Assembly: GCF_038039215.1 (NCBI RefSeq)
Contig: NZ_JBBPCL010000001.1
Coordinates: forward strand, 4,216,001-4,280,000
Reading direction: 5' to 3'
Source of the DNA: Pseudonocardia sp. T1-2H
GTDB taxonomy: Bacteria; Actinomycetota; Actinomycetes; Mycobacteriales; Pseudonocardiaceae
DNA: 64,000 nt
The notes beneath the pieces were generated by a model. The model searched no databases and was not told where the DNA came from. It saw nothing but the letters and a program-made list of their open reading frames with translations. A program made the position numbers and the translations under genes. Positions 2,427 to 58,605 of the stretch are shown here, one piece after another; the first letter of the stretch is position 1; each line of letters begins with the position of its first letter.

Positions 2427-5238
2427 ATGGCAGAGCCGGCCACGATGCTGCGCACCCGGATCGGCGACCGGCTCGCGTACTCCCGCGACGCGTCGCACTT
2501 CGCGCTGGTCCCGGAAGCCGTCGCCGTCCCGGCCGACGCCGCCGCGGTCGGCCGGCTCTTCGCGGACGCGGCCGCCACCGGGGTCCCGCTCGCGTTCCGC
2601 TCCGGCGGCACCAGCCTGTCCGGGCAGGCCGGCACCGACGGCATCCTGGTCGACACCCGCCGGCACTTCCGGGACGTCGAGGTCCTCGACGGCGGGGCGC
2701 GGGTCCGCGTCGGCCCGGGCGCCACCGTCCGGCAGGTCAACACCCGGCTCGCCCGGTTCGGCCGCAAGATCGGCCCGGACCCGGCCAGCGAGAGCGCCTG
2801 CACCCTCGGCGGCGTCGTCGCCAACAACTCCAGCGGCATGGCCTGCGGCACGGTCGCCAACAGCTACGCCACCCTCGACTCGCTGGTGCTCGTGCTGCCG
2901 TCCGGTACCGTCGTCGACACCGGCGCCCCGGACGCCGACGAACGCCTGCACGCCCTCGAACCGGCGCTGCACGAGGGGCTGGGCAAGCTGCGCGACCGGG
3001 TCCGCGACGACGCCGTCCTGCGGGCGCGCGTCGAGCAGCAGTTCTCGATGAAGAACACCATGGGCTACGGGCTGAACTCGCTGCTCGACCACACCCGGCC
3101 GGTCGACGTCCTCGCCCACCTGGTCGTGGGCAGCGAGGGCACGCTCGCGTTCATCGCCTCGATCGTCCTGCGGACCGTGCCGCTGCTCCCCCACGCCCGC
3201 ACCGGCCTGCTCGTCTTCGACGACCTCGCCGCCGCCACCGGCGCCCTGCCCGCCATCGTGGGCACCGACGCCACCACCATCGAGCTGCTCGACGCGACCT
3301 CGCTGCGGGTGAGCCAGGCCGACCCGCAGGCCGACGCGATGCTGCGCGGGCTTTCCGTCGACCGGCACGCCGCGCTGCTCGTCGAGTACCAGGCGCAGAC
3401 CCCCGAGGAGGCCGACGCCCTCGCCGGCTCGGCCCGGGGCGTGCTCGGGGCCCTCCCGGTGGCCGGCCCCCGCACCCTCGCCGCGGATCCCGCGGCCCGC
3501 GCCGCGCTGTGGCACATCCGCAAGGGCCTCTACGCGACCGTCGCCGGGGCGCGTCCGACCGGGACCACCGCACTGCTCGAGGACGTCGTCGTCCCCGTCC
3601 CCGCCCTGCTGCCCACCTGCGAGACGCTCACCTCGCTGTTCGCGCGGCACGGCTACGACAACGCCGTCATCTTCGGCCACGCCAAGGACGGCAACATCCA
3701 CTTCATGCTCACCGAGCGGCTCGGCGACGGCGCCCCGCTCGACCGCTTCGCCCGCTTCACCGACGACATGGTCGAGCTCGTCCTCGGCCACGGCGGATCG
3801 CTGAAGGCCGAGCACGGCACCGGCCGGATGATGGCACCGTTCGTCCGCCGCCAGTACGGCGACGAGCTCTACGCGGTCATGTGCGAGATCAAGGCCCTGT
3901 GCGACCCGCGCGGCGTGCTCAACCCCGGCGTCGTCATCGGCGACGATCCCGGCGGGCACCTACGGCACCTCAAGAGCGCACCGGCCGTCGAGGAGGAGGT
4001 GGACCGCTGCGTCGAGTGCGGCTTCTGCGAGCCGGTCTGCCCCAGCCGCGACCTCACCACCACCCCCCGGCAGCGGATCGTGCTGCGCCGGGAGATCCAG
4101 CGGGCCCGGGTCGCCGGAGACACCGCACTGCTCGCCGAGCTGGAGCGCGAGTACCGCTACGACGCCGTCGACACCTGCGCCGTCGACGGCATGTGCCAGA
4201 CCGCCTGCCCGGTCCTGATCAACACCGGCGACCTCGTCAAGCGCCTGCGCGCGGAGCAGGCCGGCCCGCTGGCGGCCCGCGGCTGGACGGCCGCCGCCCG
4301 GCACTGGGCGGGCACCACCCGCGCCGCCGCGGCGGCCCTGACCGTGGCGGGTGCCCTGCCGGACCGCGTCGTCACCACGGCGAACAGCGCCGCTCGTCGG
4401 GTGGTCGACCCCGACACGCTGCCGCTGTGGTCCCCCGAGCTGCCGGACGGCGGCCGGCCGCGGACCGACGAGCCGAGGCCCGGTGCCGACGCGGTCCTGT
4501 TCGCCTCGTGCACCGGCACGATGTTCGGCGCCACCGGCGACCGGGACGACGAGGGCGAGCCGGGTGCCGCCGCGGCGTTCGAGCGGCTGTGCGCCCGGGC
4601 GGGTGTCACGCTCACCCGGCCCGCCCGCCTGGCGTCGCTGTGCTGCGGGACCCCGTGGAAGTCCAAGGGGATGACCGCGGGCTACGCCGAGATGGCCCGT
4701 CGCGTGCTGCCCTCCCTGTGGGAGGCCACCCGGGGCGGCGAGCTGCCCGTCGTCGGCGACGCCTCGTCGTGCACGGAGGGCCTGCGGCACATGATCGAGA
4801 CCGCGGACGACGCGCGGTACGCCGCGCTGCGGGTCGTCGACGCCGTCGAGTTCACCGCCGAGCACCTGCTCGACCGGCTGGACATCACCGCTCCCCTGGA
4901 CTCGCTCGCCCTGCACCCGACCTGCTCGGCCGTCCGGATGGGCCTCACCGAGCCGCTCCGGAAGGTGGCCGCGGCGGTCGCCGCCTCGGTCACCGTGCCG
5001 GACAGCTGGGGCTGCTGCGCCTTCGCCGGGGACCGTGGGCTCCTCCACCCGGGAGCTCACCGCCGCCGCCACCCTGCCCCAGGCGACGGAGCTGGCCGGC
5101 CGGTCCTTCGACGGCTACGCGTCCTGCAACCGCACCTGCGAGCTGGGGATGACCCGCGCGACGGGCCGGCCCTACCGGCACGTCCTCGAGCTCCTCGAGC
5201 AGGCGACCCGGGATTCCGTGGTGGCGGGCGACGGCTGA
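2427..5238 (+). CDS. FAD-linked / 4Fe-4S dehydrogenase (D-lactate/D-2-hydroxyacid type), frameshifted near C-terminus
   Basis: A fused GlcD-GlcF-type enzyme of about 936 residues once the frame is restored. The N-terminal half is a PCMH FAD-binding domain (FRSGGTSLSGQ near residues 56-66) with the C-terminal FAD-oxidase cap. Around residue 527 a ferredoxin-like pair of cysteine clusters follows (CVECGFCEPVCPSRD and CAVDGMCQTACPV), then CCG domains (SLCCGTPWKSKG, WGCCAFAGDRG). It would oxidise a D-2-hydroxyacid such as D-lactate and pass electrons through Fe-S centres to the respiratory chain. At 5051-5053 one extra G shifts the frame at about residue 875. The expected ending (ELTAAAT through CNRTCELGM to stop at 5236-5238) continues in the next frame, whereas the uninterrupted frame runs nonsense to 5339. 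GAGGAG precedes the ATG. Confidence 0.88.
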
Positions 5239-5299
5239 CCAGGCGGGCGCGATCCCGGCGGGGTCCGGATAGCCCCCTCGACACCGGGAGGCGCTCCGG

Positions 5300-6415
5300 T
5301 CAGCCCAGGGTGGCGCCGAAGAGCAGCCCGAGGACGTAGGTCGCGCCCGCCGCACCGGCGCCGATGAGCAGCTGGCGGATCCCCCGTCGCCAGGGCGGCC
5401 CTCCGGAGAGCAGGCCCACCGTCGCGCCGGTCCCGAGGAGTGCGAGCCCCACCAGCACCACCGAGACCACGAAGGCCATGGGCCCGGTGAGCCCGAACAG
5501 GAAGGGCAGGATCGGCACGAGGGCACCGGAGGCGAAGAACGCGAAGCTCGACGCGGCCGCGCCGAGCGCCGTGCCCACTGCCTCGTGCTCCGGCTCGGCA
5601 GCCCCCGTGCGCAGCGGGACCGCGGGGTCGTAGGTACTCAGCATCTCCCGCGACCGGCGCACGGCCTCGTCGGCGGACAGCCCGCGTGCCCGCATGACCA
5701 GGGCGAGCTCGTTCTCGTCGAGATCGAGGTGGGGCAGCACCTGCGGGGCGTCGTGCAGGGCCGGCGCGGACGCCGCGAGCAGCTCCCGCTGCGAGCGAAC
5801 CGACACGAACTCCCCCGCCCCCATCGACAACGCGCCGGCCAGCAGCCCGGCCAGCCCGGTGAGCAGGACGCTGGTCGCCGTCACCCCGGCGCCGGCGACG
5901 CCCAGGACCAACGCCAGGTTGCTGACGAGCCCGTCGTTGGCCCCGAAGACCGCCGCCCGGAACGTCCCCGAGACGCGGGCGCGGCCCCGGGCCGCCAACC
6001 CCCGCAGCACCTCCTCGTGCACCCGCTCGTCGGCCGCCATCGCCGCGGTCGCCTCCGGGTCGGTGGCGTACGGCGAGCGACTCTCGGCCCGTTGGGCCAA
6101 CGCCAGCACGAACACCGAACCGAACCGGCGGGCCAGCAACGCGAGCAGCCGGCTGCGCAGGCTGCCGGGCGGGATCCGGCCGGGATCGTCCCCGAGCAGC
6201 CGCACCCAGTGCGCGGCGTGCCGTTCCTCGGCGCGGGCCAGCTCGAGGAGGATCTCCCGGTCCTCCCCGGTCCGGCGGCCGGCGAGGTCGCGGTACACCG
6301 CGGCCTCGGCCCGTTCGTCGGCCAGCCGTCGACGCCGGCGGCGGATCGCGGATCGCGACGCCGGGCGCCCGGGATCACCGTCGGTCCGCCGCACCGGAGA
6401 TCCCCGGTCGTCCAT
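5300..6415 (-). CDS. Membrane iron transporter with N-terminal ferritin-like domain (MbfA/VIT1 type)
   Basis: The 371-residue protein joins a ferritin/rubrerythrin-like domain (residues about 30-145, with the iron-ligand helices ELARAEERHAAHW and MAADERVHEEVL) to a CCC1/VIT1 membrane domain. The VIT1 signature FRAAVFGANDGLVSNLALVLGVAGAG starts near residue 152, and hydrophobic segments follow at the C-terminus (LVPILPFLFGLTGPMAF and later). Homologous MbfA proteins export iron and protect against iron/peroxide stress in alphaproteobacteria. The same role at the cytoplasmic membrane is inferred here. The start at 6415 has no strong binding site, so the first 30 Arg-rich residues are less certain. 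Confidence 0.87.
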   Translation of the reverse strand: MDDRGSPVRRTDGDPGRPASRSAIRRRRRRLADERAEAAVYRDLAGRRTGEDREILLELARAEERHAAHWVRLLGDDPGRIPPGSLRSRLLALLARRFGSVFVLALAQRAESRSPYATDPEATAAMAADERVHEEVLRGLAARGRARVSGTFRAAVFGANDGLVSNLALVLGVAGAGVTATSVLLTGLAGLLAGALSMGAGEFVSVRSQRELLAASAPALHDAPQVLPHLDLDENELALVMRARGLSADEAVRRSREMLSTYDPAVPLRTGAAEPEHEAVGTALGAAASSFAFFASGALVPILPFLFGLTGPMAFVVSVVLVGLALLGTGATVGLLSGGPPWRRGIRQLLIGAGAAGATYVLGLLFGATLG

Positions 6416-6491
6416 CCCGCACCGCCGTCCTCGCAGAGTGTCCTGACCCGCAGAGTGGCACGGCCGCTCGCCCGGGAAACGTCGAGGGCGG

Positions 6492-7307
6492 TCAACGCTC
6501 GTCGCTGCGCATCCGGAACCCCGCGCTCAGCTGTGCCACCCATCCGTCGAGGTGCGGCTCCGCGGGCGGATAGTGGTGGAGGACCAGCGGGTCGTGGCCG
6601 GGGACGATGTCCTCGGGGGAGTCGACGAGTCCCGGGAGGCGACGCGCGTAGGCGTCGAGGAGCTGCTCCGGATCGTGGGTGACGGCGAAGACGCGCCGCT
6701 GCTGCATGTTGGCGTAGAAGTGCGCGGCGTCCGACGCGAGGAGGAGCGGGCCCCCGGCGGTCCGGACCCGGACGACCTGGGTGCCCGCCGTGTGCCCGCC
6801 CACCAGGTGGACGCTGATGCCGGGGAAGAGCTCCTCGTCCGGACCGCAGAAGTGCACCCGCCGGCCGTGCACGAGGTGGACCAGCGCGGCGAGGTCGTCC
6901 GGGACGTAGGCGGAGGATCGTCCGGGGTCCGTCATCGCCGGGCCGACGGCGAAGTGCACCTCCCGCTCCTGGACATGGAAAGTGGCGCGGTCGAACAGGC
7001 CGAGGTTGCCGGCGTGGTCGTAGTGCAGGTGCGTGAGGACCACGTCGTCCACCTGGGACGGGTCCACGCCGACGGCGCGCAGTCCGTCCGGGACCGGCCG
7101 GGTGATCGTCCGGCCACGGAGCCGGGCCTGGTCGGGCCCGAACCCGGTGTCGACGACGACGGTGCGCTGCCGGTTGGCGACGACCCAGACGAAGTAGTCC
7201 ATCGGCATCGGCCCGTCCCACGCGCAGGGCCCGAGGAAGTTCTCCGCCGCCGTCCGGTCGACCCGCCCGTAGCGGATCGCGTGGACGTCGTAGGTGTCGT
7301 CGTTCAT
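6492..7307 (-). CDS. MBL-fold metallohydrolase, lactonase-like
   Basis: The 271-residue protein has the zinc signature LTHLHYDHAGNLG (HxHxDH), plus the downstream His of VGGHTAGTQ, the Asp of LASDAAHFYA and the His of VPGHDPLV. The architecture matches AHL-lactonase-like hydrolases that open lactone rings. It is the last gene of a leftward operon with a 3-hydroxyisobutyrate-type dehydrogenase, a carboxymuconolactone decarboxylase and a cupin. A lactone intermediate of aromatic or alicyclic breakdown is therefore a more likely substrate than a signalling molecule; this is inference. Its ATG overlaps the stop of the preceding gene (ATGA), which indicates translational coupling. Confidence 0.85.
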   Translation of the reverse strand: MNDDTYDVHAIRYGRVDRTAAENFLGPCAWDGPMPMDYFVWVVANRQRTVVVDTGFGPDQARLRGRTITRPVPDGLRAVGVDPSQVDDVVLTHLHYDHAGNLGLFDRATFHVQEREVHFAVGPAMTDPGRSSAYVPDDLAALVHLVHGRRVHFCGPDEELFPGISVHLVGGHTAGTQVVRVRTAGGPLLLASDAAHFYANMQQRRVFAVTHDPEQLLDAYARRLPGLVDSPEDIVPGHDPLVLHHYPPAEPHLDGWVAQLSAGFRMRSDER

Positions 7308-8210
7308 CCGGCGGACCCGCCGCTGTCGTCCCGCACCTCGACCCCGGCCCAGCCTTCGACGAGCCGGACGATGCTCGTGAAGTCCGAGGCCGGCCCGAGC
7401 TCGCTGCTGGCCTGCTGCCACATCTGGCGGACGGCCGAACCGACCCGGAGGGGCACCTCCAGACCGGCGGCCTCCTCGGCGAACAGCCGTAGGTCCTTCT
7501 CCATGAGCCCGGTGGCGAAGCCGTGGTCGAACGTGCGCGGCAGCACCGACCGGGGGAACTTGTCCTGGGTGGCGCTGCTGCGCCCGGATCCGGCGTTGAG
7601 GACGTCGATCATCGTCCGTGGGTCGAGGCCGGCCTTGGTACCGAGGACCATGGCTTCGGACGTGGTGGCGAGGGCGGCCGCGGAGAGGTAGTTGTTGACC
7701 AGCTTCATGGCCTGGCCGAGGCCGGGTTCGGTGCCGACGTGGAAGACGCGCCCCAGATGGGCGAGGAGCGGCTCGACGACGGCGAGGGCGTCCGCAGGGC
7801 ACGCGACCATGATCGCGAGGGTGCCCTTCGCCGCGCCGCCCGTCCCGCCGCTGACCGGGGCGTCCACCGCGACGACGTCGCGCCGGGCCAGCTCGGCGGC
7901 GACGGACCGCGCGGTGGGGGCGCCGGTCGTCGAGAAGCTCGACGAGGTGGCGGATCCGGCCGCCGGCGGCGAGGCCCTTCGCGCCGAGGACGACCTCGCG
8001 GACGATCTCCGGGGTGGGGAGGCTGGTGAGGACCAGCTCGGCCCGGTCCGCGACCTCGGCGGCCGACGCCGCGGCCCCGGCGCCCAGGGCGGTCAGGCGC
8101 TCGACCGCCCCGGGGTCGACGTCGTGGACGACGAGATCGTGACCTGCGTCGAGCAGCCGGCCGGCCATGGGCGCACCCATGCGACCCAGCCCGACGAAAC
8201 CCAGTTCCAT
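7304..8210 (-). pseudogene. NAD(P)-dependent 3-hydroxyisobutyrate-type dehydrogenase, frameshifted
   Basis: Two frames together give a complete 301-residue beta-hydroxyacid dehydrogenase. The N-terminal frame from 8210 carries the Rossmann signature GFVGLGRMGAPMA and runs to GGRIRHLVEL. The other frame carries the substrate motif DAPVSGGTGGAAKG, the catalytic Lys region GQAMKLVNNYL and the C-terminal helical domain. The switch lies at 7933-7940. On the coding strand the sequence reads GAGCTTCTCG where GAGCTCTCG would restore an uninterrupted ELSTTGAPTAR. One inserted T therefore breaks the gene inside a GAGCTC hexamer. It may be intact in the living cell. The final TGA overlaps the next ATG. 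Family members oxidise 3-hydroxyacids or tartronate semialdehyde. Confidence 0.85.
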
Positions 8211-8232
8211 GGCGGATGTCCTCCTCGACCGG

Positions 8233-8613
8233 TCAGCGGCCGTCGGCCGCGGCGATGACTTCCTGCGCGATCCGGAACCCGTCGAGGGCTGCCGGGAATC
8301 CGCAGTAGGCCGCCACCTGGACCAGGACCTCGCGGATCTCCTCCGGGGTGCAGCCGTTGCGCAGCGCTCCCCGGACGTGGGTGCGCAGCTCCTGCGGCCG
8401 GTTCAGGGCCGAGATCATCGCGATGTTGATCAGACTGCGGGTCGCGCGCTCGAGGCCGGGGCGACCCCAGACGGCGCCCCAGCAGTACTCGGTCACCAGG
8501 TCCTGCAGGGGTGCGCCGAGGTCGCCCGCGTTCGCCAGCGCCGCGTCGACGTACTCGTCGCCGACGACCTCGCGGCGGATCCGCAGGCCCTCCCGGTAGG
8601 TCTCGTCGTTCAC
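8233..8613 (-). CDS. Carboxymuconolactone decarboxylase family protein (PcaC-like)
   Basis: The 126-residue protein has the length and sequence pattern of 4-carboxymuconolactone decarboxylase. It contains the segment LVTEYCWGAVWGRPGLERATRSLINIAMISAL and the diagnostic ELRTHVRGALRNGCTPEEIREVLVQVAAYCGFPAALDGF. PcaC converts 4-carboxymuconolactone to beta-ketoadipate enol-lactone in protocatechuate degradation. Whether that is the substrate here is uncertain because no pcaB, pcaD or pcaHG is present in the window. The GTG start overlaps the stop of the cupin gene (GTGA), and GGGAGG lies just upstream. A second GTG one codon earlier is possible. Confidence 0.88.
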   Translation of the reverse strand: MNDETYREGLRIRREVVGDEYVDAALANAGDLGAPLQDLVTEYCWGAVWGRPGLERATRSLINIAMISALNRPQELRTHVRGALRNGCTPEEIREVLVQVAAYCGFPAALDGFRIAQEVIAAADGR

Positions 8614-9008
8614 CACGACGCCTCCCGAACCCCGCGCTCGTAGTCCTCGTCGCTGACCTCGTGGAGCCACTCGGTGGGTCCGAACGAGAACGCCGTGTGC
8701 GTGAGCAGGCTGTCCGGTCCGGCTCCGTGCCAGTGGATCTCGCCGCCCGGCGTCCAGACGCTCTGTCCGGAATGGAGCGCGCCGCCGTGGCCGTCGTCGC
8801 GGACGACGAAGCCCGTTCCGGCGGTCGCGAGGATGAGTTGTCCACCCTCGTGGCGGTGCCAGTAGGTGCGGGCTCCCGGGGCGAACACCACGGTGTTCGC
8901 CACCGGGTCGTCGCCGGCCGCGGAGACCGGGTCTCCCCAGACGGTGCCGGTGAAGGTGTCGGTGCGCTGCGCGGACGGGCGGCCGGCACGCGCTCGGATG
9001 AGATGCAC
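8610..9008 (-). CDS. Cupin-domain protein
   Basis: A 132-residue single-domain cupin. The first cupin motif is recognisable as ARTYWHRHEGGQLILATAGTGFV (two His and a distal Gly-rich turn) and the second as GGEIHWHGAGPDSLLTHTAF. Such small cupins often pair with carboxymuconolactone decarboxylases, where they may bind metal and act as isomerase, decarboxylase or accessory subunit. The coupling here by a GTGA overlap with the next gene supports joint action. The product is cytosolic, with no signal peptide. The exact reaction cannot be read from sequence. Confidence 0.85.
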   Translation of the reverse strand: MHLIRARAGRPSAQRTDTFTGTVWGDPVSAAGDDPVANTVVFAPGARTYWHRHEGGQLILATAGTGFVVRDDGHGGALHSGQSVWTPGGEIHWHGAGPDSLLTHTAFSFGPTEWLHEVSDEDYERGVREASW

Positions 9009-9026
9009 GGTGATCCCCGGGTTCGG

Positions 9027-10397
9027 TCAGGCGTTGGTGGTGGGCCGGGCGGCCGGCCGGCCGACGGTGCTCGGTGCCGCCCCGGTGAGGTCCGGGCCGA
9101 GGTCGCGCCACCTGGTCTCCGGCAGGACGAACCAGAGGATGACGGTGCAGACCAGGGCGACCCCGGCGATGTAGGCGGCCGGCAGGCCGACGCCCACGCC
9201 GGCCGCGGCCAGGGCGGCCGCGATCAGCGGGCCGGGACCGGCGACGACCGCGGCGCCGAGGTTGTAGCCGATGGCGCTGCCGGTCGACCGGGTGCTGGCC
9301 GGGAACAACTCGATCAGCATGACGGTGGTCGTGCTGTTGTGCATCGCCTCGAACAGGCCGAACAGCACCACGCCGAGGACCGCCACCACGGGATCGCCGG
9401 TCGCCATCAGCAGGAACGCCGGGACGGAGAACAGCGCCAGACCCGCTCCCCCGACGAGCGAGACCGGGCGGCGGCCCACACGGTCGGAGAGCGCGCCCAT
9501 CAGCGGGCAGAAGGCCGCGTAGATCACCGCGCCGACGGCCACCACGACCAGCGCGGACAGCCGCGGCATGCCCGCCGTCGTGGTCAGGAAGGTCGTGACG
9601 TAGGTCGCGATGTAGTAGAAGCCCAGGACCGTGATCGCCGAGAGGGCGAAGGAGATCGCGACGCTCCTGCCGCCGGATCGCCCGACCGCCCGGATCGGCG
9701 CCTCGACCACCGCGCCCTGCGCCTCGAGGTCCCGGAAGACCTTCGTGTCCTCGAGCTTCATGCGCATGTAGAGGCCGACGAGGGTCAGCGGGAACGCCGC
9801 CAGGAACGGCAGCCGCCAGCCCCAGCTGGTGATGTCGGCGGGAGCGACGGTGCTCTGGATGACGAGTGCGGCCGCCGCCCCGGCCGCCACCGCGAGTGCG
9901 GCGGTCGTGGGCACGATGCTCGCGGTGAGCCCGCGCCGGTGCGGCGGGGCGTTCTCGACGAGGAACGCCGCCGAGCCCGTCCACTCGCCCCCGGCGGAGA
10001 ACCCCTGTGCGCAACGCAGCAGGACCAGCAGGATCGGGGCCGCCACCCCGACCATCGCGTAGGTCGGCAACAGGGCGATGAGCGCCGTCGCGACGCCCAT
10101 CAGGACGACCGAGAGCATCAGGGCGAAGCGGCGGCCGCGCCGGTCGCCGATGGCGCCGATCACGAACCCTCCGACCGGTCGCATCAGGAACGCCACGCCG
10201 TACACCGCGAGCGTCGAGAGCAGCGACGAGGTCGGGTTGGAGCTGGGGAAGAAGTTCGCGCCGATCGCCACGGCGAAGAACCCGTAGACGGCGAAGTCGA
10301 ACCACTCCATGAAGTTGCCGATGCCCGCGGCCACGAGGCGGCGTCGTCGGTCCGGTTCCACGGGCGGCACGCCCGTGGCGTGGGGGTCGAGGGTCAT
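9027..10397 (-). CDS. MFS transporter, metabolite:H+ symporter (MHS) family
   Basis: The 456-residue inner-membrane permease has about twelve hydrophobic segments. The MHS-subfamily signatures are clear: AGIGNFMEWFDFAVYGFFA near the N-terminus, VAFLMRPVGGFVIGAIGDRRGRR for the loop 2-3 motif, LLRCAQGFSAGGEWTGSAAFL, and DRVGRRPVSLVGG in the second half. MHS permeases import organic acids such as shikimate, 4-methylmuconolactone, alpha-ketoglutarate or betaines. The neighbouring decarboxylase, cupin and lactonase-like genes suggest uptake of an aromatic acid or lactone. The ATG at 10397 is preferred because the conserved part begins shortly after it; an upstream in-frame ATG at 10439 would add 14 residues. 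Confidence 0.9.
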   Translation of the reverse strand: MTLDPHATGVPPVEPDRRRRLVAAGIGNFMEWFDFAVYGFFAVAIGANFFPSSNPTSSLLSTLAVYGVAFLMRPVGGFVIGAIGDRRGRRFALMLSVVLMGVATALIALLPTYAMVGVAAPILLVLLRCAQGFSAGGEWTGSAAFLVENAPPHRRGLTASIVPTTAALAVAAGAAAALVIQSTVAPADITSWGWRLPFLAAFPLTLVGLYMRMKLEDTKVFRDLEAQGAVVEAPIRAVGRSGGRSVAISFALSAITVLGFYYIATYVTTFLTTTAGMPRLSALVVVAVGAVIYAAFCPLMGALSDRVGRRPVSLVGGAGLALFSVPAFLLMATGDPVVAVLGVVLFGLFEAMHNSTTTVMLIELFPASTRSTGSAIGYNLGAAVVAGPGPLIAAALAAAGVGVGLPAAYIAGVALVCTVILWFVLPETRWRDLGPDLTGAAPSTVGRPAARPTTNA

Positions 10398-10479
10398 GCG
10401 GTTCACCACTTCTCTGGGATGTTCCGTGTCCGTCGGCACCGGGTCCGGCTCGCGCCCGGCCGGCGGCCGTGAGGTTCGG

Positions 10480-20304: not shown

Positions 20305-21772
20305 ATGCCCGTCCGTACCGGTGCGCAGTACGTCGAGAACCTGCAGAAACACCCCCGCGAGGTGTGGTTGCGGGGCGAGCGCGTCGACGACGTCACCACG
20401 CATCCCGCCTTGCGTCGGCCGATCGAGCAGATCGCCCGGCTCTACGACCTGCAGCACGATCCCGAGCTTCGCCCCGGTGCTCACCGCACCGGGTCCCGAC
20501 GGGGCCCGGGTCGGACGCGCGTTCCTGCCCTGCCGCACACCGGAGGACCTGGCCACGAGGCGGGCCGCGTACCGGGCGTGGGCCGAACCGACGCTGGGCC
20601 TGATGGGCCGCTCGCCGGACTTCCTGAACACCACGCTGATGGCGTTCACCGAGTCCCCCGGCGTGTTCGCCAGGCTCGGGCAGCGGTACGCGGACAACAT
20701 CGCGCGCTACTACTCCTACGTCCGCGACAACGACCTGTTCCTCACCCACGCGCTGATCACCCCGCAGACCGACCGGTCGAAGGGCGCGTCGGAGCAGCAG
20801 GAGCAGTTCCTGCACATGGGCGTGGTGTCCGAGACCGCCGAGGGACTGGTCGTCCGCGGTGCCCGGATGCTGGCGACGCTCGCCCCGATGGCCGATGAGC
20901 TGATCATCTACAGCCTGCCCGGCCTGCGCCCCGGCGACGAGCGCCACGCCGCCTGCTTCGCGATCCCGATCGACACCCCCGGCCTGCGACTGATCTCTCG
21001 CGCCCCCTTCGACGACGGCACCCGGCACCCGTTCGATCACCCGCTCTCCTCCCACTTCGAGGAGGCGGACTGCCTCGTCGTGTTCGATGACGTGCTGGTG
21101 CCGTGGGACCGGGTGTTCCTGCACGGCGACGTGGAACTGGCCAACGCCCTCTACGCCGAGACCGACCTGCGCCAGCACACCGCGCACCAGACCGGCGTCC
21201 GCGGCCTGGTCAAGCTGCAGTTCGTCACCGGGCTGGCGATGAAGCTCAGCCAGTCGGTGAAGATCGACGGCTTCCTGCACGTGCAGCAGAAGCTCGGCGA
21301 GTGCATCGCCGCCGTCGAGCAGGCGCACGCGCTGCTCGTCGCGGCCGAGGCCGAGTACGAGACCACCGCGACGGGCACGGTCCGACCCCGGTTCAACGCG
21401 CTGCAGACGCTGCGGGTGGTGCTGGCCACGCAGTACCCCAAGCTGGTCGAGGTGCTGCAGACCCTCGGCGCGGGCGGGCTGCTGATGATGCCCTCGGCCG
21501 AGGACTTCGGCTCGCCGATCGCCGACGACATCGCGCGCTACTACCGCGGCGCCGAGATGTCCGCCGTGGACCGGATCCGGCTCTACAAGCTGGCCTGGGA
21601 CCTGTGCGGCGACGCGTTCGGACAGCGCGCAGTGCAGTACGAGCGCTACTACGCCGGCGACCCGGTGCGCATCCTCGCCATGAACTACCTGGCCTACGAC
21701 AAGTCCGAGTGCTTCCGTCTGGTCGACCGGGCGCTGGCGCTCGCCGGCGATCCCGACACCCCGGCACCGTGA
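20305..21772 (+). pseudogene. 4-hydroxyphenylacetate 3-monooxygenase oxygenase subunit (HpaB-like), frameshifted
   Basis: Joined across two frames it is a 488-residue HpaB-type flavin-dependent phenol hydroxylase. The N-terminal frame begins MPVRTGAQYVENLQKHPREVWLRGERVDDV. After the shift come PDFLNTTLMAF, the QTDRSKG motif, the DCLVVFDDVLVPWDRVF block and the C-terminal helices typical of the family. The enzyme adds a hydroxyl ortho to a phenolic OH using FADH2, giving a catechol. At 20464-20470 the sequence is GAGCTTC where GAGCTC would keep one frame (ELAPVLTAPGPDG), so one extra T breaks the gene in a GAGCTC hexamer. AAGGGA before the ATG fixes the start. The stop overlaps the GTG of the reductase gene. 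Confidence 0.88.
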
Positions 21773-33174: not shown

Positions 33175-34315
33175 ATGCTGGAGGTCGAGACGGTCGATCG
33201 GATCCTGCGCCTGCACGGTGACGGGCTGCCGATACTGAGCGTGTACGTGAAGTACGACCCCGACGACCGCAGGGCCTTCCCGAGCCGGGTGGACGAGCAG
33301 CTGCACGACGTGCGGCTGCTCATCAAGGACCCTGCGCTGACCCGGGACGCCCGGTTGTCCCTGCGCACCGACGTGGAGCGCATCGCGGAGGCTGCGAAGG
33401 TGGAGCGCCTGCACCCGCAGGCGGTCGCGTTCTTCTCCTGCTCCGGACGGGACGTGTTCGAGGACGTCGAGCTGCCGCGACCGGTGCACGACCGGAACGT
33501 GACCGACGAGACGGCGTGGGTCCGACCGCTCGTGGCCGTCCTCGACGAGTACCACCGCTGCCGGGTCGTGGTGGTCGACCGCGGGATCGCCCGGTTCTTC
33601 GACCTCTACCAGGACGAGATGGCGGAGCTCGGCGCACCGATCCGGGACCGAACGCTGCGCAAGCCCGACTACGCGGCCGGGATGCGGGAGCACACCACCC
33701 ACAACAAGGCCGAGCTCCTGGCGAAACGCCACTACCGCGCGGTGGCCGAGCGGCTGGACGAGCAGGCCCGGCGCCACGAGTTCGACATCGTCGCCGTCGG
33801 CGGCCACGAGCACGAGGTCGCGGAGTTCCTCGGCCACCTTTCCCGGGACGTGCGGGAGCGCGTGGCGGGGACGTTCTCCGTGCACCCCCGCGAGGACGAC
33901 CTCGGGACGATCCGCGACCGCGCCGGGGAGGTGGTGGAGCGCTACGAGCGGGCGGAGGAGCGGCGGCTCGTGGCCGAGACCCTCGAGCGGCACGCGGCGG
34001 GCGGGCTCGCGGTCGTCGGGCTGCCGGACTGCCTGTGGGCCGGCGCCACCGCCGCCGTCGGGCAGCTACTCGTCCAGGAGGAGGTCGTGCAGCCGGGCGT
34101 GGTCTGCGACACGGACGGCTACCTGGCGGTCGAGGGCGAGCAGTGCCCGGTGTGCGGGCGGGCTCCGCCCCACGCCGGACGTCGTCGACGAGCTCGTCCA
34201 GGCCGTCATCGACGAGGGCGGGGGCGTCGAGCACGTCGCGGCGGACACCCCGTTGCGCGAGCACGTCACCGCCGCCACGCTCCGCTTCCCCCTGCCCGCA
34301 CGCCCGGCCGGCTGA
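33175..34315 (+). CDS. Bacterial eRF1-like (baeRF/Vms1-type) protein, frameshifted near C-terminus
   Basis: The restored protein has about 379 residues and resembles the bacterial release-factor-1-like family (Rv2629-type, in the hypoxia regulon of Mycobacterium tuberculosis). Segments include LPILSVYVKYDPDDRRAFPSRVDEQL, VVVVDRGIARFFDLYQDEM, HNKAELLAKRHYRAVAERLDEQARRHEFDIVAVGGHEHEV and a late zinc-type QCPVCGR. One surplus base (or a two-base loss) between 34157 and 34172 shifts the frame. The expected TPDVVDELVQAVIDEGGGVEHV ending lies one frame over and stops at 34313-34315, while the unbroken frame continues as Arg-rich nonsense. AGAGGAGGA before the ATG fixes the start. A role in ribosome rescue is inferred. 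Confidence 0.82.
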
Positions 34316-50113: not shown

Positions 50114-50302
50114 ATGCAGGACCTCACCGCCGTCGCGCCCCCGCCGCACGGCACCGAACCACCGCTTCCCGATCCGCCGATCCCGCCCGGTCCGGACCCG
50201 CAGCCACCCGGTCCCGGGCCGCTCCCGGGCCCGCCGCCCAGCCCGATCCCACCGCCCGGACCACTGCCCCCGATACCACCTGATCCAGGTCCTGTTCCGT
50301 GA
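50114..50302 (+). CDS. Proline-rich 62-residue protein
   Basis: Thirty-two of 62 residues are proline, in short PPP, PGP and PLPPIPP units, with three PPP stops that would need elongation factor P. The start MQDLTAVAPPPHGTEPPLPDP is preceded by AGGGAGAG at ideal distance, which supports real translation. No signal peptide or membrane segment is present. It is either a cytosolic spacer-like peptide or the remains of a Pro-rich wall protein. It has no clear partner gene. Confidence 0.55.
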   Translation: MQDLTAVAPPPHGTEPPLPDPPIPPGPDPQPPGPGPLPGPPPSPIPPPGPLPPIPPDPGPVP

Positions 50303-50385
50303 TCGCCACCCGCGGCGGGTGAGCGAGCGGCGAAGGGTGACGCGGTCGGCGCACGGATCCCCGGCCCGGTGCCGGTGGAGCGCCG

Positions 50386-51402: not shown

Positions 51403-51525
51403 GTCGCCGCCCCCTCGTCCTCGGGCGCACCATCATCGGGGTGATCCCGGTCCGGCGCAACGAGCCGCGTCGATCGCCTCGCCCCGACCCGCCGCTTCCG
51501 TGCCTCTCCGGCGTTCGGGCACCGC

Positions 51526-52560
51526 TCAGGACGCGAACGCCGGGATGACCTCCTTCGCGAACAACCGTGCCGAGGACATCGCCTGGTCCCGGGTGATGCC
51601 CGGGAGCTGCGTCCAGCACTGCATCTCGGTCACGCCGAGCTCGTCCCGCAGCCGCGTGACGTGCGCGACCGCGTCGTCCGGGGTGCCGATGATGTAGCGG
51701 TCCTTGAAGGTCTCGAAACTGACGGTGTCCGCGTCCGCGATGACGCTGCCGTCGTCGGCCCGCAGAACCCGCTCGCCCGACGCCGACTTCTTGCCGTAGA
51801 GCTCGCGGAACAGGTGGGTCACGGCGGGGGCCGCGATCTCCTCCGCCTTCTCGCGGGTCTCGGCGATGAACCCGCCCCGCATCACCGGGCGCTCGGCCGG
51901 GACGTACCCGACGTCGGCGGCGGCCGCGTCGTAGGCGGCGAGGTGTTCCGCCAGCTCGGCGAAGCCGTGCCGGGGCGAGCACACCAGCGGGCAGCGACGC
52001 TCGGCCGCCTTGCGCAGCAGCTTCGGCCCGGACACGCCGTACCAGATCGGCGGGTGCGGTGCCTGCACCGGCTTCGGGGAGAGCCGTGTCTCCGGGACGT
52101 GCACGAACCGCCCGTCCATGCTGAACGTCTCCTGCGTCCACGCCGCCTGGAGCACGTCCAGGTACTCCTCGAAGCGGCTGGCGCGGTCGTCGTAGGACAC
52201 CTGCAGGCCGGCGAACTCCTCCCGCACGTAGCCGGGCGCCACGCCGAGCGTGAACCGCCCGCCGGAGAGGTTGTCCAGCACGGCCACGTCCTCGGCGAGC
52301 TTCACCGGGTTGTACAGCGGCGCCAGCAGCACGTTGGTGCCCAGCGTGATCCGGTTCGTGACGGCCGCGGCGGCCGCCAGCACCATGAGCGGGCTCGGGT
52401 TGTGCCCGTCCGCCTGGAAGTGGTGCTCGGTCACCTGCAGGGAGTCGTAGCCCAGGTCCTCGACCTCGGGGGCGACCTGCACGAAGTCCTGGACGGCGTC
52501 CGCCCACGTCATCCCGCTCCCGGCGGGGGTCACCATGCCGAACACCATTCCGAAACGCAC
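51526..52560 (-). CDS. LLM-class flavin-dependent oxidoreductase
   Basis: The 344-residue luciferase-like protein has LGYDSLQVTEHHFQADGHNPSPLMVLAAAAAVTNRITLGTNVLLAPLYNPVKLAEDVAVLDNLSGGRFTLGVAPGYVREEFAGLQV and PPIWYGVSGPKLLRKAAERRCPLVCS. The TEHHF motif and the GYV(R)EEF stretch are typical of alkanal-monooxygenase-like enzymes. AGGAGG before GTG 52560 fixes the start. It is divergent from the pxp operon. Confidence 0.9.
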   Translation of the reverse strand: MRFGMVFGMVTPAGSGMTWADAVQDFVQVAPEVEDLGYDSLQVTEHHFQADGHNPSPLMVLAAAAAVTNRITLGTNVLLAPLYNPVKLAEDVAVLDNLSGGRFTLGVAPGYVREEFAGLQVSYDDRASRFEEYLDVLQAAWTQETFSMDGRFVHVPETRLSPKPVQAPHPPIWYGVSGPKLLRKAAERRCPLVCSPRHGFAELAEHLAAYDAAAADVGYVPAERPVMRGGFIAETREKAEEIAAPAVTHLFRELYGKKSASGERVLRADDGSVIADADTVSFETFKDRYIIGTPDDAVAHVTRLRDELGVTEMQCWTQLPGITRDQAMSSARLFAKEVIPAFAS

Positions 52561-52755
52561 GGTCGGCCTCCTGTCGTCCTCGTCCCGTCTCCGGGTGCGG
52601 CCCACCCTCCGGGCAGGGCCGGGGCGGCGCCACTGGCGGATACGCAGTGTGCGCCGCGGCGAATTGGGGAATCCGCGATTGCCCTGCTCATCGACGTGAG
52701 GCAGCCTTCGGCATCGTCCGACCACCTCCTCGGCGCATCTCCGGAAGGAGCCAGC

Positions 52756-53544
52756 ATGACGGACCACCAGGCCCTGCGGGCCGTGGACATCAACTGCGAC
52801 ATCGGCGAGGGCTTCGGCAACTGGACCATGGGCGCCGACGCGGAGATCATGCCCCTGATCACGACCGCGAACGTCGCCTGCGGCTTCCACGCCGGCGATC
52901 CGGTGATCATGGGTCGCACCGTCGAGCTGGCCGACCAGCACGGCGTCGTCGTGGGCGCGCACCCCGGGTACCAGGACCTGATGGGCTTCGGCCGGCGCCC
53001 GATACCGCTCGCCCCCGAGGAGGTCGCGGCCATCGTGACGTACCAGGTGGGGGCGCTGACCGGATTCCTCCGGGCGCGGGACATGCCGCTCAACCACGTG
53101 AAGCCGCACGGCGCGCTCTACGCGTACCTGCGCGACAACGCCGAGGCCGGCGCCGCCGCCGCGGGCGCGGTCCACCGACTCGCGCCGGAGGCGAAGGTCT
53201 ACTGGCCCGCCCCGACGACGGGCGCGGTGTTCTGCGAGGAGCTCGCGGAGCTGGGCCACGAGGTCATCGGCGAGATCTACCCCGACCTCAGCTACTCCCC
53301 CGACGGCCACCTGGTGATCCAGAAGCAGAAGCTCCGCACGGACGTCGCGTTCGCGGCGTCGCAGGTCAAGCGCTTCCTGACCGAGGGCGTCGTGGAGGCG
53401 GAGGACGGCACCCTGCTGCCGCGCGAGGCGCGCAGCGTGTGCATCCACTCGGACGGGCCCAACGCGGTCGACGTCGCGCTGGCCGTCCGCACCGCGATCA
53501 CCGAGTCCGGCGCGACCATCGCGGCCGTCGGGACCGACGCGTGA
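52756..53544 (+). CDS. pxpA: 5-oxoprolinase subunit PxpA (LamB/YcsF family)
   Basis: The 262-residue protein carries the LamB/YcsF hallmark at its start, DINCDIGEGFGNWTMGADAEIMPLITTANVACGFHAGDPVIM, and HVKPHGALY, both typical of PxpA. In E. coli PxpABC forms the ATP-dependent 5-oxoproline (pyroglutamate) hydrolase. Here the operon also encodes biotin carboxylase and carrier, so the substrate may be another lactam or carboxylated compound. GAAGGAG before ATG fixes the start. The stop overlaps the GTG of pxpB (GTGA). Confidence 0.92.
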   Translation: MTDHQALRAVDINCDIGEGFGNWTMGADAEIMPLITTANVACGFHAGDPVIMGRTVELADQHGVVVGAHPGYQDLMGFGRRPIPLAPEEVAAIVTYQVGALTGFLRARDMPLNHVKPHGALYAYLRDNAEAGAAAAGAVHRLAPEAKVYWPAPTTGAVFCEELAELGHEVIGEIYPDLSYSPDGHLVIQKQKLRTDVAFAASQVKRFLTEGVVEAEDGTLLPREARSVCIHSDGPNAVDVALAVRTAITESGATIAAVGTDA

Positions 53545-54456
53545 CGGCGGCGGCCCGCCCCGAGCTGGCTCCCGGGCCCGACGGCAGCCTCTACACCTTC
53601 GGTGGCGACGAGTGGATCGTCGCGCAGCTGTCGGAGTCGATGAGCCTGCGGGCCAACCTCCGCGCCCAGGCCGTCACGCGGCGGCTGGCGGAGCTGGCCC
53701 TGCCCGGCGTCGTCGAGATCTGTCCGTCGAACGCGGCCTACATGGTGCGGATCGACCCGGACGTCGTGCACCCGCGGGCCATGCTCGAGCGGCTGAAGGA
53801 GCTTGCCGAGGAGGTCGGGGAAGCCGAGGACTTCGTCCTGCAGACCCGCATCGTGGACGTCCCGGTGCTGTTCCGGGACGAGTGGACGCACGAGACCGTG
53901 ATGCGCTTCCGCGACCGGCACCAGACTCCGGACCGCACGGACCTGGAGTTCGCGGCAGAGGCTCAACGGCTACCCCGACACGGACTCCTTCATCGCCGCG
54001 ATGGTCGGCGCCCCGTTCATCGTCTCCATGATCGGGTTCGTCCCGGCCGTGCCCTGGGGCTACCAGCTGGTGCCCGCCGACCGGCAGATCGAGGTGCCGA
54101 AGTACGTCCGCCCGCGCACCTTCACCCCGGAGCGCGCCTTCGGCTGGGGCGGCGGCTTCTCCGCGATCTACCCGGTCGACGGCGCCGGCGGCTACCAGCT
54201 GTTCGGGATCTGCCCGGGGCCGATCGTCGACCCGGCGCAGCGGCTCGCGGACTTCCGCGAGCAGTTCACCTTCCCGCGTCCCGGCGACATCTTCCGGTAC
54301 CGCGCGATCGAGCGCGCCGAGTACGACGCCGTCCGCGCGACCGTCGAGGACGGCACCTTCCGGTACCGGCAACGCGAGGTCGAGTTCGTCCCGCACGACT
54401 GGTTCGCCGACCCGGACGGCACCGTCCGACGGCTGGAGGGAGTGCTCGATGCTTAA
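53541..54456 (+). pseudogene. pxpB: 5-oxoprolinase subunit PxpB (KipI-like), frameshifted
   Basis: Joined across one frameshift it is 304 residues. The N-terminal frame (YTFGGDEWIVAQLSESMSLRANLRAQAVTRRLAELALPGVVEICPSNAAYMVRIDPDVVHPRAMLERLK) is followed in the next frame by GYPDTDSFIAAMVGAPFIVSMIGFVPAVPWGYQL, the GGFSAIYPVDGAGGYQLFGICPGPIVDP block and the C-terminus to 54456. At 53958-53964 the sequence is GAGGCTC, where GAGCTC would give an unbroken EFAAELNGYPDTD. One surplus G thus breaks the gene in a GAGCTC hexamer. The GTG start is coupled to pxpA, and the 3' end overlaps pxpC by eight bases. PxpB and PxpC form the catalytic pair. Confidence 0.88.
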
Positions 54457-55423
54457 GGTCCACCGCCCCGGCCTGATGACCACCGTGCAGGACGCCGGCA
54501 GGATCGGCGGTTACCACCTGGGCATGCCGCCCTCGGGCGCCATGGACCGGTTCTCCTTCTCGGTGGCGAACCTGCTGGTCGGCAACACCGACGAGCACGC
54601 GACGCTGGAGTGCACCTATCTCGGCCCGGAGATCGAGTTCACCGAACCCGCGCACATCGCCGTCACCGGCGCGGACATGCCGCTGAAGATCAACGGAGAG
54701 CCCGCCGACGGCTGGACCTGCCACGCGGTTTCCCCGGGCGACGTCGTGTCGTTCGACTTCCTCAAGGCGGGTGCCCGCGCCTACCTCGCCGTCTCCGGCG
54801 GGATCGACGTGCCGCCGGTGCTCGGCAGCCGCTCGACCTACACCCTGACCGGCACCGGCGGGCTCGACGGCCGCGCGCTGCGGGAGGGCGACGAGCTCAA
54901 GACCGGTGCCGCGGCCACCTCCGCCGCCGCGGGCGCGAACGTGCCCGAGGAGCTGCGGCCCGTGCACCCCTCACAGGTGGAGCTGCGAGTGGTGGTGGGC
55001 CTGGCCAGCTACCGGCTGGTCCCGGAGAGCCTGGCCGCCTTCCTCACCACGGACTGGCGGGTCACCCCGGACGCGAACCGGGTGGGCTACCGCTACCGCG
55101 GCGGCGCCATCGAGTTCGTCGACCGCACACCGCCGGCGGGCGCCGGGAGCGACCCGGCCAACGTCGTCGACATCGGCTATCCCGTCGGGTCGATCCAGGT
55201 CCCGGGCGGTTCAGAGCCGATCGCCCTGCTGCACGACGCCGTGACGGCCGGCGGGTACGCGACGATCGCCACGATCATCAGCGCGGACCTCGGGCGGGCA
55301 GGCCAGTCCAGGACCAACGACGTCACCCGGTTCGTCGAGGTCACCCTCGACGAGGCCCTGACGGCCCGCCACGAGCTCGCTGCCCGGCTCGCCCGCGTCC
55401 GCGAGGCGCTCGGCGCCGGTTGA
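54449..55423 (+). CDS. pxpC: 5-oxoprolinase subunit PxpC (biotin-dependent carboxyltransferase family)
   Basis: The 324-residue protein starts MLKVHRPGLMTTVQDAGRIGGYHLGMPPSGAMDRFSFSVANLLVGN, the family signature of PxpC/KipA/urea-carboxylase C-domain proteins, and has ISADLGRAGQSRTNDVTRFVEVTLDEAL near the end. It works with PxpB and, given the two biotin-enzyme genes that follow, may act as a carboxyltransferase. It overlaps the pxpB 3' end by eight bases and is 31 bases ahead of the carrier gene. It is unbroken. Confidence 0.92.
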   Translation: MLKVHRPGLMTTVQDAGRIGGYHLGMPPSGAMDRFSFSVANLLVGNTDEHATLECTYLGPEIEFTEPAHIAVTGADMPLKINGEPADGWTCHAVSPGDVVSFDFLKAGARAYLAVSGGIDVPPVLGSRSTYTLTGTGGLDGRALREGDELKTGAAATSAAAGANVPEELRPVHPSQVELRVVVGLASYRLVPESLAAFLTTDWRVTPDANRVGYRYRGGAIEFVDRTPPAGAGSDPANVVDIGYPVGSIQVPGGSEPIALLHDAVTAGGYATIATIISADLGRAGQSRTNDVTRFVEVTLDEALTARHELAARLARVREALGAG

Positions 55424-55454
55424 CCCCCCACCCGCGCATCCCCGAGGAGGCCCC

Positions 55455-55694
55455 ATGCCCGAGCACATCGTCCACGCCCCGTTCCCCGGCGTGTTCTACC
55501 GGCGCCCCGACCCGCAGTCACCGCCCTTCGTCAACGAGTCGGACACCGTCGCCTCCGGCTCGGTGGTCGGGCTGATCGAGGTGATGAAGATGTTCCAGGA
55601 GATCCGGTCCGAGGCCGACGGCACCGTGGCCGAGTTCCTGGTCGAGAACGAGGCGGCGGTCGACGCGGGCCAGCCGCTGATGCGGCTCACCTGA
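55455..55694 (+). CDS. Biotin carboxyl carrier protein
   Basis: The 79-residue protein consists of a single biotinyl domain with the EVMKM motif, so Lys45 carries biotin. The strands VHAPFPGVFYRRPDP and VASGSVVGLIEVMKMFQEIRSEADGTVAEFLVENEAAVDAGQPLMRLT fit the flattened barrel. It lacks the usual Ala/Pro-rich N-terminal arm of AccB, so it is a minimal carrier dedicated to the neighbouring carboxylase. The last base of its stop is the first base of the biotin carboxylase start (TGATG). Confidence 0.93.
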   Translation: MPEHIVHAPFPGVFYRRPDPQSPPFVNESDTVASGSVVGLIEVMKMFQEIRSEADGTVAEFLVENEAAVDAGQPLMRLT

Positions 55695-57052
55695 TGGGCG
55701 CGGCCTCCCTCCCCCGGAAGGTCCTGGTCGCCAACCGTGGCGAGATCGCGGTGCGGGTGATCCGGGCCTGTCAGGACCTCGGCATCACCGCCGTCGCCGT
55801 GCACTCCGAGGCCGACGCCGACGCGCTGCACGTCGCCCTCGCCGACGAGGCGGTCGCGATCGGCCCGGCGCCGGCGCGCAGCAGCTACCTGGACGTCGGG
55901 CGGATCGTCGACGCCGCCCGCACCGCCGGGTGCGACGCCGTCCACCCGGGCTACGGCTTCCTGTCCGAGAACCCTGCGCTCCCGAGGGCTCTCGCGGAGG
56001 CGGGGATCGCGTTCGTGGGCCCCTCGGCCGAGGTGATCGAGCAGGTCGGGGACAAGGTGGCCGCCCGCGGTGCGGCGAAGGCCGCCGCCGTCCCGGTCGT
56101 GCCCGGCAGCGACCGGCTCGACACCGCCGAGGAGGCCGTCGGCTTCGCCACGGACGTGGGGTTCCCGGTCCTGCTCAAGGCGGCGGCGGGGGGCGGCGGC
56201 CGCGGGATCCGCCGCGTCGACGAGCCCGACGAGCTGGCCACGGCCTTTGCCGAGGCGTCCCGGGAGGCGGAGGCGGCCTTCGGCGACGGCGGCGTGTTCG
56301 TGGAGAAGTGCATCATCGACGCCCGGCACGTCGAGGTGCAGATCCTCGCCGACGCGCACGGCGCGGTGGTGCACCTGGGCGAACGGGAGTGCTCGCTGCA
56401 GCGCCGCCGGCAGAAGCTGGTGGAGGAGAGCCCGGCGCCGGGGCTGCCCGCGGGGCTGCGCAAGGAGCTCGGCGCGGCGGCCGTCCGGCTCGCCACCGAG
56501 GTCGGGTACCGCGGCGCGGGCACGGTCGAGTTCCTGGTCGACCCGCACACCTGGAGCTTCTACTTCATCGAGGTCAACGCGCGGATCCAGGTCGAGCACG
56601 GGGTGACCGAGCTCGTCACCGGCGTCGACCTCGTCGTCGAGCAGCTCCGGATCGCGGGCGGCCTCCCGCTCCCGCTGGCCCAGGACGAGATCTCCTGGTC
56701 CGGCGCGGCGATCGAGTTCCGGATCAACGCCGAGGATCCCGAGCGCGGGTTCTTCCCGTCGCCGGGCCGGCTCACGCTGCTCCGGCTGCCCGCGGGGCCC
56801 GGCGTGCGGGTGGACACCGGGTTCGAGACGGGCCGCAGCATCCCGCCCTACTACGACTCGCTCATCGCCAAGGTGATGGTGTGGGGCTCGGACCGGGAGC
56901 AGGCGCTGGCCCGGGCCCGCCGCGCGCTGGCCGAGCTGGCGGTGGACGGGGTGGCCAGCACGGCTCCGTTGCATCGCAGGATCGTCGGCTGGGACGCCTT
57001 CCGTGGCGGGCAGTTCCACACCGGTTCGCTGGAACGGTTCCTGGCGGGCTGA
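55694..57052 (+). CDS. accC: Biotin carboxylase subunit
   Basis: The 452-residue ATP-grasp enzyme carboxylates biotin on the carrier. Seen are VLVANRGEIAVRVIRACQDLGI at the N-terminus, HPGYGFLSENPAL, the ATP-lid GGGGRGIRRV, the ERECSLQRRRQK motif, and FIEVNARIQVEHGVTELVTGVDLVVEQLRIA, where the usual NxRLQVEHPVTE reads NARIQVEHGVTE. It forms, with the carrier and PxpBC, an unusual carboxylase set. Its stop lies three bases from the stop of the convergent pucR gene. Confidence 0.94.
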   Translation: MGAASLPRKVLVANRGEIAVRVIRACQDLGITAVAVHSEADADALHVALADEAVAIGPAPARSSYLDVGRIVDAARTAGCDAVHPGYGFLSENPALPRALAEAGIAFVGPSAEVIEQVGDKVAARGAAKAAAVPVVPGSDRLDTAEEAVGFATDVGFPVLLKAAAGGGGRGIRRVDEPDELATAFAEASREAEAAFGDGGVFVEKCIIDARHVEVQILADAHGAVVHLGERECSLQRRRQKLVEESPAPGLPAGLRKELGAAAVRLATEVGYRGAGTVEFLVDPHTWSFYFIEVNARIQVEHGVTELVTGVDLVVEQLRIAGGLPLPLAQDEISWSGAAIEFRINAEDPERGFFPSPGRLTLLRLPAGPGVRVDTGFETGRSIPPYYDSLIAKVMVWGSDREQALARARRALAELAVDGVASTAPLHRRIVGWDAFRGGQFHTGSLERFLAG

Positions 57053-57055
57053 GGG

Positions 57056-58605
57056 TCAGGCCGCCCCGGCCGTCTCCCCCGGAACCGCCGCCGGAGCCGC
57101 GTCGCGCAGCATCAACGCGACGTAGATCTCGGCCAACCTGGGCGCCGAGTGCAGGTCGAAGCCGAGCAGCGTCCGCACCCGGTTCAGCCGGTGGCGGACG
57201 CTGTTCTCGTGCACGTGCAGCGCCCGGGCCGTCGCCGGCACGTTCAGCGAGGTCCGCAGGTAGACCCGCAGGGTGTCCAGCAGGTGGTCGTGCCCCTCGA
57301 GCGGGCGCAGGACGTCGAGCACCCGTTCGCGCACGGACTCCACCCCCGCGGTCAGCACCAGCCACTCCATGAGGCCCAGGTCGCCGTAGCGGACCACGGC
57401 CGGGCCGTCGCCGCCCGGTACCGCGGAGAGCGCCGCACAGGAGAAGGCGACCATCGCGTCGTCGTAGGAGGTCCGGACGCCGTCCGGGCCGCCCGCGGGG
57501 CGGCCGACGCCGAGCGGCTCGGCGCCGGCCGCCCGGCCCACCTCGGCGAGCAGACCGTCGTCGACGTCCGCCGGCAGGCGCAGCACGAGCATGCCCTGCC
57601 GGCAGGTCAGCAGGTGCGGGACGCGCGAGCGGTTGAGCAGGTCCTCGACGGGGGCCGGGGACGCGTCCGTCCTGCCCACCGCGACGACGCCGGGCGTCGC
57701 GAGGTCGACGCCCAGTTCGGCCGCGCGGTCCTCGCTGTCGAGGATGCGCGGGTCGCGGACGCGTTCCGCCAGGGGCCGCAGGAGTCGTCGAGGAGCTCAC
57801 CGCGAGCCGAGCGACGCAGCCCGCTCCGTCGCCCGCGCACGCCGAGCAGCCCGTCGAGCAGCCGCCCGGTGACGGTGAGGGCCCGCAGGATCAGTGGGAC
57901 GGCCAGCGAGCCCCGGGACACCTCGAGGATCACCCACGCGACCACCGCGCCGTCGACCTCGACGGCCGTGGCGAAGAGCCCGTCCGCCACGATCTGGACC
58001 GGCGGCGCCGAGAGGGGCAGCTCCCGGAGCCGTTCCCAACGCTCTGCGGTGTCCGCCGCAGAGGTGGAGCTGTAGAGGACGGTCCCGTCGGAGCGGTGCA
58101 GCGAGGCCTCGCAGCGCAGCAGCCTGGCCAGGCTCGCGACGAGGGCCCGCTCCGGGTCGGGGTCCCCGAGCGCCTGGACGAGCGTGTCGGTGATGGACGC
58201 GGACCGGCGGAGGGTCTGCAGGTCCCGGGCCACGAGATCCGCATCGACCATGCGGACGATGTCCCGGAACGGGGTCTCCTCGGGTACGGCGAACAGCGGC
58301 AGCCCGTGCCGCTCCGCCTCCTGGACGATCGCGCGGGGGACCGTCTCGAACGCGATGCCGGTGCCGAAGCCGAGCGCGACCACCCCGTTGCCGGCGAGCT
58401 CGGCGACGAGCGCCCGCTGCGCGGCGACGTTGCGCCGCAGCCGCATGCCCGTGGTGAGGACGATCCACTGCGGCGGGACCCAGCGTGAGGGGTTCTCCGT
58501 CTCGATGGCGTGGGCGCCGAGCACCACACGCCGCCGTTCGTCGTCGCCACTGACCAGCAGTTCCAGCTTGAAGTCCGGGTGCGCCAGGACGTCGCCGAGA
58601 ATCAT
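57056..58605 (-). pseudogene. PucR-family transcriptional regulator, frameshifted
   Basis: Restored over one frameshift it is about 516 residues. The N-terminal frame from 58605 starts MILGDVLAHPDFKLELLVSGDDERRRVVLGAHAIETENPSRWVPPQWIVLTTG, a classical PucR sensor domain. The C-terminal frame ends in the PucR helix-turn-helix LRTSLNVPATARALHVHENSVRHRLNRVRTLLGFDL. Between them, at 57782-57786 (plus strand), GAGTC stands where GAGCTC would restore LDELLRPLAERV. One base is missing in a GAGCTC hexamer; an intact GAGCTC lies nine bases away. GGAGGTGG precedes the ATG. It probably activates the pxp or aminotransferase genes in response to a nitrogenous catabolite. Confidence 0.88.

Follow-up and report, generated by a model that had tools for sequence, protein, structure and literature searches.

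Why do several genes in one stretch of an actinobacterial genome break at the same six bases? In the window, the whole 64,000-nucleotide stretch of Pseudonocardia sp. T1-2H that was analysed (contig NZ_JBBPCL010000001.1, G000:C1:4216001-4280000; GC content 73%), the original prediction had noted that five of six frameshifted genes are disrupted in or next to the hexamer GAGCTC. It had named two possible causes, base-calling error at a modified site and a mutation hotspot. Three results favour the first of these: single-base insertions are enriched at this exact hexamer genome-wide, the genome encodes a SacI-like C5-methyltransferase, and the pattern is repeated in an Amycolatopsis genome. Modification-linked base-calling error is thus the best-supported cause of the GAGCTC frameshifts, with a probability of roughly 0.87.

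Coding statistics and homologues both place a one-base indel in or beside GAGCTC in each of the five window genes (Table 1). From a codon-periodic Markov model, for which 1.6 Mb of the window's own genome (G000; 7.0 Mb, three contigs) served as training data, we obtained frame-change log-odds for a +1 shift of 11.9 in the flavin adenine dinucleotide (FAD)/iron-sulfur (Fe-S) dehydrogenase gene, 19.1 in the 3-hydroxyisobutyrate-dehydrogenase-type gene, 11.7 in the hpaB-like gene and 20.3 in the gene that the original prediction labelled pxpB, and 15.7 for a −1 shift in pucR. All six aligned relatives of the FAD/Fe-S dehydrogenase gene are one base shorter immediately before AGCTC or AGCTG. At the pxpB site, each of 10 distinct aligned relatives is shorter by a net one base, and the two closest, G010 and G012, have GAGCTC and GAGCTG. 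The two pieces of the 3-hydroxyisobutyrate-dehydrogenase-type gene align to HIBADH positions 1–79 and 90–286. An intact 488-amino-acid protein 99% identical to the window's HpaB, its source not shown in the database, continues across the disrupted point; the closest named relatives are Pseudonocardia proteins (89–93%). Likewise, an intact 516-amino-acid protein, 98% identical to PucR, has Asp-Glu-Leu where the window is one base short.

The strings of all five sites are present where they had been placed; that of the minus-strand dehydrogenase spans exactly 7934–7940. A Viterbi scan with the coding model called four of the five sites and missed hpaB, where it truncated the gene. The one additional shift that the scan found in the window is not at GAGCTC, in agreement with the claim of five in six, whose sixth gene was left unnamed. 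The effect had also been described as partial, and the window indeed contains 61 intact copies of the hexamer.

Over 1.6 Mb of the window's genome the same scan called 257 frame changes. Removal of 130 that resembled natural gene overlaps left 57 insertions and 70 deletions. Tabulated against hexamer context, the insertions are enriched at GAGCTC genome-wide: 40 of the 57 revert to GAGCTC when one base is removed, against 2.84 expected by chance. With alternative padding the count is 40 or 41, and a second estimate of chance is 3.42/57; matched random coding stretches reach GAGCTC by one-base removal in 5–6% of cases. One form, GAGCTTC (GAAGCTC on the other strand), makes up 32 of the 40 reverting insertions. 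It is found at an insertion in 32 of its 365 occurrences (about 0.4 expected), and in none of its 46 occurrences in three relatives. Such events occur in each of four 400-kb blocks, at 7, 6, 9 and 10 sites, where chance would give no more than 0.09 per block. The unfiltered GAGCTTC count varies with the frameshift penalty, being 38, 37, 32, 20 and 0 at penalties of −10, −14, −18, −24 and −30. The other one-insertion forms of GAGCTC, to which sites 1 and 4 belong, are rarer, yet above chance: of the 25 insertions that remain they explain 10, where 1.7 would be expected.

A second scan tested every position independently of the frameshift calls. GAGCTTC is its top insertion 7-mer among those with at least 4 hits (38/365, log10 p −39.6). 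With the doubled T collapsed, GAGCTC is hit in 38 of 365 cases and all other NNNCTN hexamers pooled in 80 of 17,596.

Table 1. Coordinates of the frameshift sites and associated features; plain numbers are window positions.
Feature	Position	Strand	Gene or context
Site 1: extra G/C directly before GAGCTC	5051–5058	+	FAD/Fe-S dehydrogenase gene, about 2445–5238
Site 2: GAAGCTC (gene strand GAGCTTC), main error form	7934–7940	−	3-hydroxyisobutyrate-dehydrogenase-type gene, 7304–8210
Site 3: GAGCTTC, main error form	20464–20470	+	hpaB-like gene, 20305–21772
Site 4: GAGGCTC, minor insertion form	53958–53964	+	Gene labelled pxpB, 53541–54448
Site 5: GAGTC (gene strand GACTC), one-base deletion in GAGCTC context	57782–57786	−	pucR, 57056–58605
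Further +1 frameshift, not at GAGCTC	34144–34178	+	Frameshift scan alone
Intact GAGCTC example	57793–57798		Adjoins the pucR site
Only aroB, interrupted at GAAGCTC	G000:C1:2970724 (L065)
A groEL gene, interrupted at GAAGCTC	G000:C1:5973367 (L090)
C5-methyltransferase gene	G000:C1 1588564–1589619		PF00145
MTaX1 protein gene	L011 134–1417 (G000:C1 about 1587218–1588501)		Directly upstream of the C5-methyltransferase gene

We searched for homologues of the genes interrupted at GAGCTTC, using both pieces for 10 of the 32 events, the longer piece only for 20, and none for two. In 9 of the 10 events with both pieces searched, the two align to consecutive segments of a single family: GroEL (2–187 and 190–539 of 541), RibBA (12–151 and 154–406), AroB (181–490 and 499–541 of a fused profile), CydC, amine oxidase, HIBADH, acetaldehyde dehydrogenase, R2-like oxidase and RecQ. 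In the tenth event, a DUF418 protein, two parts are matched with a gap between them. The aroB gene is present in a single copy in the window's genome, and RibBA has other copies. The interrupted aroB and groEL genes are probably false pseudogenes.

The search for a GAGCTC methyltransferase found one SacI-like C5-methyltransferase, the single PF00145 protein of the genome (175 bits). The PPC and ENV motifs, which we take to be catalytic motifs of C5-methyltransferases, are invariant across nine methyltransferase sequences. A hit named 'Modification methylase SacI' shares 72–73% identity with the enzyme, and a relative (at locus L121) whose gene adjoins a RE_SacI gene shares 71%. Within the target-recognition region, whose bounds we set ourselves, identity is 70% to the L121 enzyme and 42–59% to nine others of its neighbour cluster. 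M.SacI is a C5 enzyme acting on GAGCTC, according to the portions of PMC4725820 available to us. A search of plasmids for named relatives of the methyltransferase gave no specificity labels among the 15 of 140 matches listed. Across loci L112–L168, one methyltransferase family is accompanied by three endonuclease partner types (RE_SacI, EcoRV-type PF09233 and MTaX1).

A methyltransferase 88% identical to that of the window's genome is encoded by Amycolatopsis sp. 2-2, a public complete genome of which we scanned 400 kb (NZ_CP127173.1, 1.3–1.7 Mb; L169–L188). The overlap filter dropped 46 of 61 frame changes in this sample; it dropped 15/18 in G012, 8/11 in G010 and 7/12 in G002. The 15 that pass are 10 insertions and 5 deletions. 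Seven of the 10 insertions are at GAGCTTC, or 7 of 120 such sites against 0.058 expected. No paper naming Amycolatopsis sp. 2-2 was found among the matches listed.

On the favoured reading, the frameshifts would be errors in the consensus of an assembly built from long reads, most likely nanopore ones. The SacI-like enzyme would methylate GAGCTC, and the modified cytosine in the pore, usually with a pyrimidine and a C after it, would be read as one base too many, turning GAGCTC into GAGCTTC (GAAGCTC on the other strand). Where most reads agree, the extra base would stay in the consensus, and the gene would look broken although the DNA is intact; the apparently broken genes are thus probably intact in the cell. 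The bases flanking the events fit this account. In the GAGCTTC orientation, a pyrimidine (C or T) stands directly after the motif in 29 of the 32 events, compared with about 27% of intact sites, and the next base after that is C in 81% of events and 28% of intact sites. Dependence on bases past the palindrome suits the k-mer reading of a pore; damage to the methylated base itself appears to fit it less well than such multi-base reading.

Two cleaner assemblies bear on the alternative of a true mutation hotspot, at which methylated or enzyme-cut GAGCTC would gain single bases in the living cell. G004 and G025 encode enzymes 67–68% identical to that of the window's genome, both with an MTaX1 neighbour; in 200 kb sampled from each, 0 and 2 shifts pass the filter. 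None of their 69 GAGCTTC sites is at an insertion, where about six would be expected at the 32/365 rate (probability of none about 0.002). This is a strong but not final argument against enzyme-driven true mutation, because their enzymes are more distant. A hotspot would account for the exact motif dependence, and next to the methyltransferase gene lies one for a putative nuclease; the damage to single-copy aroB and to a groEL gene, the existence of near-identical intact HpaB and PucR, and the influence of bases past the palindrome are against it. We counted the two intact proteins and the hit in the only aroB in favour of base-calling error. Since a genome with a close homologue of the enzyme repeats the error and cleaner assemblies with related enzymes are without it, the hotspot is disfavoured and we regard it as very improbable.

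The modified motif might also be broader, for instance GRGCYC (BanII type), with GAGCTC merely its most error-prone member. A GRGCYC motif with 5-methylcytosine (5mC) is known in the actinobacterium Propionibacterium freudenreichii, whose native nanopore assemblies show 114–126 differences in two strains with the motif and 2 in a strain without it, as given in the available portions of PMC11649196. Here the other members show no clear enrichment in the 57 insertions (GAGCCC 11, chance 7.1; GGGCCC 6, chance 5.0), and the L121 relative of the enzyme is paired with RE_SacI. We therefore rejected the broader motif on these near-chance levels and consider it improbable. A weakness of the pore or base caller at GAGCTCYC in unmodified DNA would explain the effect of the 3′ pyrimidine; the GAGCTTC error is not seen in the stretches of G002, G004, G010, G012 and G025, for which the platforms are not established, and the single other genome that shows it has the close enzyme homologue. 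This explanation seems to us highly improbable. Finally, the five window cases alone are few, as ordinary gene decay with a coincidental link to the motif would allow. The pattern had been described as unlike random gene decay, and this holds: both the genome-wide GAGCTTC enrichment in the second scan and the 40 of 57 reverting insertions argue against chance, as does the repetition in Amycolatopsis, and we rejected decay as having a negligible probability.

Several points weigh against modification-linked base-calling error. The effect is partial, most GAGCTC sites (1,210 in 1.6 Mb) being intact. We infer the methylation of GAGCTC, its 5mC chemistry and the sequencing platform, and the specificity of the enzyme for GAGCTC is suggested by its homology and by the error motif. 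RE_SacI (PF09566) was not found in the window's genome, leaving the SacI system incomplete, and the same search recovers it from the L121 and L161 genomes; the neighbour of the methyltransferase is an MTaX1 protein instead. At 18 loci, related enzymes are paired with EcoRV-type proteins that lack assigned specificity. Methyltransferases of the PF01555 and PF02384 families were not found in the genome, a search that did not extend to other families such as PF02086 and PF07669. The Amycolatopsis sample is without a homopolymer signature, one of its five deletions lying at a G/C run of at least four, and its sequencing platform is not established.

The deletions weigh on the same side, since forms of GAGCTC lacking one base are not enriched among the 70 (12 observed, 12.0 by chance). 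In 26 of these deletions the interval's longest G/C run has five bases (chance 2.6), and in 53 it has four to six (chance 15.2); the excess at runs of five we counted as a platform signature in favour of base-calling error. Contraction of G/C runs is a common nanopore fault according to the available portions of PMC11649196, and the −1 shifts may for the most part be ordinary homopolymer contractions. Compared with its homologue, pucR does carry a real deletion, but the place of that deletion in the enriched GAGCTC class, which the original prediction had assumed, is unproven; because deletions are not enriched at GAGCTC, its cause may be separate.

The kind of error is already known, and the T insertion at GAGCTC adds a new instance to it; among the papers listed in a limited literature search, judged mostly by their listings, no report of nanopore errors at GAGCTC was seen. 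In Listeria (Modpolish, PMC10687267, as far as its available portions go), systematic errors at one short motif are likewise tied to the modification system of a lineage, and the motif was likewise recovered from the errors. The motifs there are GCAGC and GCTGG and mismatches were counted, whereas here a one-base insertion at GAGCTC was recovered from a finished assembly without reads. P. freudenreichii is, like Pseudonocardia, a high-GC actinobacterium, and its C5 motif includes GAGCTC; that motif is broader, and in the portions of PMC11649196 available its errors are not tied to GAGCTC. Our analysis adds the repetition in a second genome and the assignment of an enzyme.

At methylated motifs, public 'complete' genomes may contain false pseudogenes in large numbers. 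Scaling the 32 called sites per 1.6 Mb to 7.0 Mb gives about 140 GAGCTTC errors in the window's genome, where annotation and metabolic inference are harmed at aroB, groEL and a ribBA copy. Conversely, the errors point to the methylated motif, and so offer a cheap, testable assignment of specificity for the enzyme family as well as its uncharacterised neighbour, the MTaX1 protein. We lean slightly towards the view that the frameshifts of a finished assembly alone give the recognition sequence of a methyltransferase, which would assign GAGCTC to an actinobacterial C5-enzyme family pairing with three types of endonuclease (RE_SacI, EcoRV-type PF09233, and MTaX1 with a PD-(D/E)XK fold), and would make the MTaX1 protein a restriction endonuclease of a new kind that acts on GAGCTC.

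The SacI system (PMC4725820, in its available portions; RE_SacI, PF09566) resembles the present one in its methyltransferase and differs in the gene beside it. A relative of the MTaX1 protein has a predicted C-terminal PD-(D/E)XK nuclease fold, and the MTaX1 protein is a candidate new GAGCTC endonuclease.

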